From a virus: a DNA stretch of 44,172 nt. Below the pieces are notes generated by a model. The model saw nothing but the letters and a program-made list of their open reading frames with translations, ran no database searches and was not told the origin of the DNA. The stretch's first letter is position 1, and the number at the start of each line of letters is the position of its first letter. Shown piece after piece: positions 3,971-5,864 of this stretch. The stretch is from IMG/VR virus record IMGVR_UViG_3300033148_003616, positions 1 to 44,172 of that record; one strand, given 5' to 3'. A program made the translations under genes and the position numbers.

Positions 3971-4432
3971 CTATTCCTTCCAGTCCTTCATATTTTTAAC
4001 TTGTTTATCCATCTTATCTGACAAAGGTATAATCTGTAATATACCTTTAGTATCTGTTACAATTCCACCATGTTTAGATAACATATTTACCATAAACCTA
4101 GATTCATCATCTGTAGCGTAATACAGAAGCTCAATACCGTTATTCCTAGCATGGTCCAATAGGTGAGATATAAGTTTTTTGGTTGCGAGTCCGCGAAGTG
4201 CAGCGCTTCTGTCACGCTCTGATATTGTGAAGCCCATTTGTCCGAGGATACTGTTTGAAGCGTAATAACAGGAGAAGACGATTGGCTCTCCATTATAGCT
4301 GATAAAAAATCCAGTTCCTCTAGGGAGACATCTCTCATCCCAGACTTGCCATTTCCACTGTCCAAACCATTTTTCGAGGTAGTGGTAGTCCCCCTCTGGG
4401 TCATACGCTCGTATCGTGAATCGTGTAGCCAT
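3971..4432 (-). CDS. GNAT-like acetyltransferase, overprinted on Hint gene
   Basis: A 153-residue protein with the outline of an N-acetyltransferase fold: an N-terminal strand and helix (FTIRAYDPEGDYHYLEKWF), a central strand segment (GEPIVFSCYYASNSILGQMG), then helix (RGLATKKLISHLLDHARNNG) and strand (IELLYYATDD) ending in a helix-strand finish (FMVNMLSKHGGI). The classical R/Q-x-x-G-x-G/A acetyl-CoA loop is only loosely present, so the substrate is unknown and activity uncertain. The start is supported by a strong ribosome site (GAGGAGGAGACCC before ATG) made by Glu codons of the upstream gene. Its first 346 bases lie inside the 3' end of the Hint-domain gene in another frame. Similar small GNAT-like proteins occur beside ejection genes in other short-tailed phages. 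Confidence 0.7.
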   Translation of the reverse strand: MATRFTIRAYDPEGDYHYLEKWFGQWKWQVWDERCLPRGTGFFISYNGEPIVFSCYYASNSILGQMGFTISERDRSAALRGLATKKLISHLLDHARNNGIELLYYATDDESRFMVNMLSKHGGIVTDTKGILQIIPLSDKMDKQVKNMKDWKE

Positions 4433-5556
4433 TGGGTCTCCTCCTCTTCCGTAACCATATCCCCTGAAGTATATCCACCTTCAGTTATATAGAACCCCTT
4501 TTCTGTCACTAATGGATAAACTATAGTATCTAAAGGCATTTCAGTCAAGTTACCTACTTCCTTTACAGATACTAATTTACCCTCCATCTTAATTAAGTGC
4601 GATGCTGACATATACTCACCTTTATATTCGTATATATCTGCTCCCGCAATCAACTGTCCTGTACCTAACACCTCTCCATAACCCTGTAACTCATCACCAA
4701 TGGTAATATCCTCTATTTTCTTAAGAGATCCGTCTATCATGTATATCTTTGTGCCTTTTATATGACAAGCAGCCGCTCTCTCTGCGTCAGCAGATGCCCT
4801 TGCAGAAGCTGCTTGTCTAGATGCTGTCCTTTCTTGTATCCCCATATCGGCAAAGCCTAAGCCGGACTGAATAGCGATATTCTTCTCTTTAGCAGCCTGT
4901 CCTAAGTCAAATTCCCCTACGTGAGTAGAAGCATTGAATAAACTCTGTATCCCAGACCTTTTAGCCTGTTCTCCCTGTATGAATAAATCTCTTTGCATAT
5001 TGGCTCTAGCACCTGCTTGTCCTACAGCCAGATTTCTCAACTGTCCACCTGCTGCCCCGCCTTTAACTCCAGCTGCCGCCAATCTAGCTTGTAAAGCCCT
5101 ATTCTGACCCTGCTCAGAGCCTTGTAGCTGCTGTAAAGAGGATTCCCTACGTGCAGTAGCTTCTTTACCTGAAAAGCCCTGAGCGCCCTCTCTGAGACCT
5201 TCTAAGGAGGTCTTTACATCAGCGCTATCTCCTATCCGCCCTAATCCATCTGGTCCGAGCACCGCTTCACCAAATTGCGTACCTTTAACAATATCCCTCT
5301 CTCTATCTGAGATAGCTGAGGTAGGGTCTGCAATAATCCGCTGTTGAGAAGCGATTTGGCTCTGTAGAGAGGACTGTTGTTGTTGATATTTTCTGTACTC
5401 TGATGTTTGGGTTCTATTACCATCATCATCTTCTGAGTACTGGGAAGGTGCCGATAACCCTCCTAACTGGGTCTGTAATCCTGTTAAAGAGGATTGAGCT
5501 GCCTTTACCTTACCCTCAGTAAACTGTTTCTTAATTCTTTCTGACTCACCTGCCAT
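4087..5556 (-). CDS. Virion protein with C-terminal Hint domain
   Basis: A 489-residue protein. Residues 1-263 are Gln/Ala-rich and helical with a Gly/Ala-rich segment near 155-185, like a short-tailed phage internal virion protein. From Cys264 a Hint (hedgehog/intein) domain begins: CHIKGTK, then MIDGS, KKIEDITIGDEL, a SASH motif near 317-320 that fits the block B Thr/Ser-x-x-His position, and a final strand region near 343-360. There is no C-terminal His-Asn plus nucleophile, so it should act as a cleaving rather than a splicing Hint domain and may release the first 263 residues. Residues from about 375 to the stop are overprinted by the GNAT-like gene. The domain is recognised by motif; cleavage is inferred. 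Confidence 0.75.
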   Translation of the reverse strand: MAGESERIKKQFTEGKVKAAQSSLTGLQTQLGGLSAPSQYSEDDDGNRTQTSEYRKYQQQQSSLQSQIASQQRIIADPTSAISDRERDIVKGTQFGEAVLGPDGLGRIGDSADVKTSLEGLREGAQGFSGKEATARRESSLQQLQGSEQGQNRALQARLAAAGVKGGAAGGQLRNLAVGQAGARANMQRDLFIQGEQAKRSGIQSLFNASTHVGEFDLGQAAKEKNIAIQSGLGFADMGIQERTASRQAASARASADAERAAACHIKGTKIYMIDGSLKKIEDITIGDELQGYGEVLGTGQLIAGADIYEYKGEYMSASHLIKMEGKLVSVKEVGNLTEMPLDTIVYPLVTEKGFYITEGGYTSGDMVTEEEETQWLHDSRYERMTQRGTTTTSKNGLDSGNGKSGMRDVSLEELDFLSAIMESQSSSPVITLQTVSSDKWASQYQSVTEALHFADSQPKNLYLTYWTMLGITVLSFCITLQMMNLGLW

Positions 5557-5558
5557 TA

Positions 5559-5864
5559 TTACTCCATAATTATTAATGTTACTGTAACCTCTACAGCACC
5601 ATGATTATATATATATACTTTATCTCTAGTCCACTCATTAGTGGCAGATCTTGTTATTACTCCATTACCCAACTGATCAACTATTATAAACTTTGTTGGC
5701 TTAGATTTCAACTCGTTAGATAACTCAATTTCAGAAGTAGCCGAAATTACTAGAGTAGTCTCAAAGGATTGGAAGTTATCTGTGAACTTCAAGTTCCTAA
5801 GCCCTATTTCTAACTCTCTAACCACTTTTGAAAGAATTTTAAGTCCATGTAATCTAAAATTCAT
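5559..5864 (-). CDS. Small conserved virion-region protein, unknown
   Basis: A 101-residue protein between the nozzle gene and the Hint-domain gene, two bases from the latter. It has an N-terminal helix (LKILSKVVRELEIGLRNLKF) and then mostly strands: FETTLVISATSEIEL, PTKFIIVDQLGNGVIT, DKVYIYN and EVTVTLIIM. The layout looks like a small beta-sandwich, a form common for minor tail or decoration proteins. Short proteins of this pattern recur beside tail genes in other short-tailed phages, with no assigned function that I know. The start codon overlaps the stop of the upstream nozzle gene by one base, suggesting coupled translation. Confidence 0.65.
   Translation of the reverse strand: MNFRLHGLKILSKVVRELEIGLRNLKFTDNFQSFETTLVISATSEIELSNELKSKPTKFIIVDQLGNGVITRSATNEWTRDKVYIYNHGAVEVTVTLIIME

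Follow-up and report, generated by a model that had tools for sequence, protein, structure and literature searches.

A C-terminal Hint domain and its GNAT-fold partner gene in a phage internal-virion gene block: a candidate self-processing cassette

Among described Hint domains, the type B BILs lack block G and cleave without splicing, and a Thr at B:7 and a His at B:10 drive the N-terminal acyl-shift step (PMC4031507). Here we analyse a domain encoded in a 44 kb IMG/VR virus record from an uncultured, marine-type virus of bacteria; 'the window' denotes the whole stretch examined, 44,172 nucleotides long. The domain belongs to the Hint superfamily and, on the features compared, is neither an intein nor a type A BIL nor a PT-HINT toxin, but resembles the type B BILs. 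With type B BILs it shares the Hint fold, an N-terminal Cys, a B-block His and the lack of block G, and its best structural match is a BIL2. It differs from them in its position at the C-terminus of a phage virion-block protein, in an invariant Asp where the His-Asn end would stand and in its GNAT-fold partner; moreover, the window Hint is known here from sequence and model, whereas cleavage is on record for the type B BILs.

Other systems share fewer traits. Unlike a splicing intein, the window Hint has no His-Asn, no +1 Cys/Ser/Thr and no C-extein. Type A BILs find a counterpart in tandem upstream Hints with VHN-K ends, present in L057, L099 and other loci, but the window has neither an upstream copy nor a His-Asn. 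The hedgehog Hog domain likewise stands at the C-terminus, lacks His-Asn and has a short extension after the Hint; however, its fold match is weaker (1at0, E 0.035), the extension in our proteins is about 20-50 residues, no clear sterol region was found in it, and the carrier is a prokaryotic virus. PT-HINT proteins also bear a Hint near the C-terminus, and orphan cassettes occur beside the main gene (as in L022), but no toxin domain follows the window-type Hint. As for the partner gene, it shares the GNAT fold with the acyltransferases RimI and Ard1 and sits in a gp13-gp16-type block, at the position of T7 gp13, but lacks motif A and has no profile similarity to T7 gp13.

The Hint is borne by a 489-residue ORF on the minus strand (5556-4087); the original prediction had given the coordinates correctly, and the strand is now specified as minus. 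Its order of Hint blocks holds as first described, with CHIKGTK starting at Cys264, MIDGS at residues 273-277, then KKIEDITIGDEL and SASH at 317-320. A Hint HMM, made solely from phage proteins of another architecture unrelated to the window protein, matches residues 262-379 with an E-value of 1.3e-23 (78 bits), against a maximum of 3.4 bits over 500 shuffles of the window protein. The Pfam family Hom_end_hint gives a sub-threshold match starting exactly at residue 264 (E 4e-4), and relatives give independent sub-threshold matches to Hom_end_hint, Hint, Hint_2 and Vint at the corresponding place. From a 39-sequence alignment, AlphaFold models the core as a Hint beta fold with pLDDT above 90, for which the best Foldseek match is the BIL2 of the Tetrahymena thermophila BUBL1 locus (E 6.5e-5, TMq 0.64); a Vint domain and inteins are also found, and hedgehog gives a weaker match. 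Both the profile search and the structure prediction that had been proposed as checks thus came out in favour of a Hint. Residues 264 to about 389 are a real Hint-superfamily domain and not a chance similarity, because the HMM match stands far above the shuffles, the Pfam matches, though sub-threshold, fall at the Hint, and the model adopts the Hint fold. Neither PHROGs nor NCBIfam assigned the window Hint protein to a family.

The limits of the domain needed some revision. A profile search of residues 260-375 had been suggested; the core ends at about residue 367 and is followed by a single helix to about residue 389 (Table 1). The His-Asn end is indeed absent, as had been noted, with Gly-Asp366-Met at that place and no extein beyond, but a remnant of the last block is present (VYPLVTEKGFYITEGGYTSGD), Asp366 taking the place of the His-Asn. 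Past the core, the window Hint has just this one helix, some 20 residues long (pLDDT about 55), and in alignment A5 it matches the homologues L022 and L028 at their C-termini.

Table 1. Features of the Hint locus in the window (positions in the 44,172-nucleotide stretch).
Feature	Position	Strand	Remarks
gp16-position protein, 679 aa	230..2269	minus	phrog_342 (internal virion protein with endolysin domain), weak, E 9e-4; synteny
gp15-position internal virion protein, 565 aa	2273..3970	minus	syntenic marker; function from position
GNAT-fold partner gene, 153 aa	3971..4432	minus	AlphaFold model, pLDDT 89.7; Foldseek; linkage
Overprinted tail	4087..4389	minus	residues 390-489 and stop; other frame of the GNAT gene
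C-terminal helix	4390..4455	minus	residues 368-389; AlphaFold helix 370-389, lower confidence; alignment A5
Hint core	4456..4767	minus	residues 264-367; profile, AlphaFold, Foldseek, alignment
Asp366 codon	4459-4461	minus	at the place of the His-Asn end
His320 codon (SASH)	4597-4599	minus	B-block His
Cys264 codon	4765-4767	minus	Hint nucleophile position
N-terminal core	4768..5556	minus	residues 1-263; alignment A7 (21 proteins), synteny
101-aa conserved small gene	5559..5864	minus	upstream of the Hint gene; synteny
Tail-tube-B-position protein, 827 aa	5864..8347	minus	syntenic marker in nearly all relatives; function from position

What lies beyond the helix is of another nature. The Hint ORF runs out of frame into the GNAT gene for 346 nucleotides (4087-4432, residues 375-489); in relatives the overlap is usually 0-140 nucleotides and the proteins end soon after the Hint. 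No homologues were found for the window protein past about residue 390. Judging from these comparisons, the working protein probably does not include residues 390-489, and the overprinted tail may reflect a lost stop codon in a damaged copy, or an assembly indel.

Across 39 diverse terminal Hints, whose mean column entropy is 2.0 bits, just five columns never vary, namely Cys264, Lys279, Val296, His320 and Asp366; the invariance of the Cys is partly selected, since it stood in one of the two search patterns by which most of the wider set was gathered, while His320 and Asp366 stood in neither. Of the 36 sequences that have a residue aligned directly before the Cys, 31 show Gly, Ser or Ala there; in the B block, 32 of the 39 carry Thr or Ser at the position preceding x-x-H. 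The Hint is under purifying selection, with dN/dS of 0.06-0.27 in six pairs of close relatives. The window copy is itself divergent: it has Ser at B:7, lacks the Asp at F:4 and has lost the F-block His. Asp366, from its place in the alignment, may match either the Asn or the His of the intein end. In the MAFFT alignment, the upstream Hints that carry His-Asn are about 40 residues longer than the terminal ones.

What, then, is the protein to which the Hint is fused? Searches of viral contigs with single sequences found nothing for the window protein or for its upstream tail-tube neighbour, and an initial scan of bacterial genomes, made with the entire window protein, gave no match. Relatives were reached solely via the terminase, which led to two near-complete genomes carrying the window protein, and a profile search then extended these to 19 loci. 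Gene order is kept among them: a 313-aa tail protein, a large tail protein, the 101-aa protein, the Hint protein, the GNAT-like gene, and the gp15- and gp16-position genes. The fusion to a virion protein that had been proposed thus agrees with position, the host protein lying in the internal-virion (ejection) gene block. Homology to T7 gp14 or gp13 was rejected, hhalign giving a probability below 1% against the single T7 sequences with only the block position in agreement; as no sequence similarity to T7 gp14 was found, the internal-virion role is assigned from position. In three relatives an M15-type peptidase gene lies between the GNAT and gp15-position genes (L024:6273-6545, L025:6393-6683, L027:6294-6572), and a muramidase-like ORF occupies the same place in L034.

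The conserved unit among the 21 aligned proteins (alignment A7) is the N-terminal 263 residues. At the junction that follows, homologues bear a Hint of one of several subtypes, nothing, or another domain: four Hint-less homologues (L034, L036, L037, L038) stop there in a Gly/Lys-rich end, and in four others (L032, L035, L039, L040) an unrelated domain of the TV(I/V)CTELHRQG type replaces the Hint. Named phages gave no match to this replacement module. These homologues support the view, as first suggested, that the working product consists of residues 1-263. Since this segment is a complete protein in Hint-less relatives, its release at Cys264 is a sensible reading, and the alternatives found at one junction provide the strongest support for taking residues 1-263 as the finished protein and the Hint as an appended module.

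This type of Hint is found as a C-terminal module on at least 360 IMG/VR contigs, and its hosts are diverse, including a VrlC-like myovirus protein and Gly-rich proteins besides the internal-block protein of the window. In more than 70 loci the terminal Hint is always the last domain, mostly behind a flexible Gly/Ser-rich linker, and the proteins stop about 20-50 residues past the Asp. More than 12 loci have tandem Hints, in which one or two copies ending in an intact VHN-K directly precede the Cys of the terminal Hint (L057, L059-L064, L066, L067, L072, L078, L096, L099, L101, L106, L109, L114, L118). A tblastn search of 50,697 named phage records with terminal Hints found no relative beyond first-block similarity to true inteins, in just annotated helicase, terminase, RecA-like and portal genes; these matches, being confined to the first Hint block, were rejected as isolate relatives.

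The gene directly downstream is modelled with high confidence as a GNAT fold, with RimI and Ard1 as nearest folds (Foldseek E 7.8e-8, for RimI, to 5e-7). The acyl-CoA motif A, R/Q-x-x-G-x-G/A, is absent from all 25 sequences of the long GNAT family; the window copy is one of them and reads RDRSAA. With this motif missing from the family, ordinary use of acetyl-CoA is doubtful.

The association of the two genes is close in both directions. Using three small HMMs built partly from the same loci, we found a GNAT gene downstream of the terminal Hint in 61 of 83 IMG/VR loci and elsewhere in none: all 64 matches lie on the same strand, downstream and at most 1.5 kb from the Hint stop, and there were none in 190 kb of upstream sequence, on the other strand or further downstream. 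Conversely, a scan of the collection with the GNAT alignment alone returned 79 usable loci, of which 76 have a terminal Hint upstream, among them every one of the 61 whose upstream sequence reaches 2 kb or more; because many of these contigs overlap the first Hint set and many are closely related, the counts are of loci and not of independent events. The sole GNAT match in bacterial genomes lies on a contig of a Verrucomicrobia MAG and is likewise preceded by a terminal Hint. There are exceptions. Four loci have a Hint and no GNAT (L028-L030, L033), three Hint-less relatives have a short GNAT, of a kind elsewhere paired with other Hints, and a group of HMO-2011/Roseobacter-phage-like contigs (L045-L047, L050, L052-L056, L070) carries the terminal Hint on large proteins with a scaffold-like gene directly downstream and no GNAT nearby. 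Searches of open-access literature turned up no account of phage Hint domains being paired with GNAT genes.

The two genes have also moved together. Between L025 and L027, a block of 95-99% identity spans Hint and GNAT and drops to 72-88% on either side; dS is 0.10 for the Hint and 0.25 for the GNAT, while the N-terminal domain and the other neighbouring genes have values of 0.65-0.80, and gp16 (dS 0.30) marks a second exchange. By this comparison the two phages have evidently exchanged Hint and GNAT as one block. In L022 (4616-6863), a Hint1-GNAT1 pair stands in place and is followed by a stand-alone Hint2 with a linker remnant and by GNAT2, an arrangement that looks like cassette displacement.

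The reading we lean towards, though with modest confidence, is that of an internal-block protein with a self-processing Hint at its C-terminus, part of a mobile phage cassette of Hint and GNAT-fold genes. Cys264, aided by Ser317 and His320, would attack the carbonyl of Ala263 in an N-S acyl shift, giving a thioester that links residue 263 to the Hint. In the absence of a His-Asn end and a +1 nucleophile splicing could not follow, and the thioester would therefore be resolved by release or transfer: either hydrolysis, a simple release of residues 1-263, or GNAT-aided transfer to a nucleophile. This would set residues 1-263 free and leave the Hint, with its C-terminal helix, to be discarded, the GNAT-fold protein from the overlapping downstream gene acting as a dedicated helper of the thioester step or of its product. 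We infer the cleavage, the destination of the product and the role of the GNAT from the computed Hint fold, active-site conservation, modular boundary, reciprocal GNAT linkage and co-exchange, to which the tandem upstream Hints with intact VHN before the terminal Cys add support; the divergence of the window copy, the Hint loci without GNAT, the GNATs of Hint-less relatives and the long overprinted tail weigh against the model. That some processing does occur at Cys264 seems reasonably probable.

How the thioester is resolved, and whether it forms at all, could be read in other ways. GNAT-fold enzymes transfer acyl groups from thioesters to amines, and in a hedgehog-like ligation the thioester would not be hydrolysed but handed on, by or with the GNAT-fold partner, to an amine or some other nucleophile, leaving residue 263 covalently attached to a second virion protein, to a small amine or to a lipid. 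The linkage of the GNAT family to a Hint in 61 of 61 informative loci, the loss of the CoA loop in all 25 long members and the constant C-terminal position behind a flexible linker fit such a scheme; we nevertheless consider it unlikely, as the loss of motif A may signal just a degenerate or atypical CoA site and the short GNATs, partners of other Hints, persist without a Hint in three relatives. A new two-component system of phage protein modification, in which the Hint thioester and a dedicated non-CoA GNAT-fold enzyme attach a virion protein to an amine acceptor and so link virion parts covalently or decorate them, is put forward as a tentative proposal of low probability. No more probable is that the GNAT works as a conventional acetyltransferase, acting on the Hint, on the processed virion protein or on a target in the host, while the Hint cleaves alone. 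The closest folds, RimI and Ard1, are protein N-terminal acetyltransferases, acetylation of host RNA polymerase by phage GNATs is on record (PMC7824862), and a SET-domain or Asp/Asn hydroxylase gene adjoins other Hint genes, but the canonical motif A is missing throughout the long family, the window copy included.

Slightly less probable again is that the Hint is a dead or structural C-terminal domain and the full-length protein the virion form. Several secondary residues are lost in the window copy, and its ORF continues into the next gene; yet Cys and His stay invariant across very diverged sequences that remain under purifying selection. That inteins are among the nearest folds might suggest an inserted intein that has lost its C-terminal splice junction, which we regard as very improbable: Hint-less homologues end at the junction with no C-extein continuation, the domain is always C-terminal in the loci surveyed, and it is linked to a partner gene. 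This reading and that of a toxin were both rejected on architecture.

Beyond the original prediction, the Hint emerges as a widespread, mobile C-terminal module with a near-constant GNAT-fold partner, and thioester transfer becomes an alternative to hydrolysis. With self-processing modules at their C-termini, phage virion proteins could mature, or be assembled covalently, without a protease; the cassette is present in hundreds of uncultured phages, and the near-perfect reciprocal linkage of Hint and GNAT makes for a clear hypothesis that is cheap to test. Should the GNAT prove to use the Hint thioester, it would be a protein ligase of a new type, of use in biotechnology. Genes of other kinds are also seen beside terminal Hints: Asp/Asn hydroxylase or SET-domain genes directly follow terminal-Hint genes at L069:4416-5078 and L099:4375-4824, and in the first case a GNAT gene comes next.
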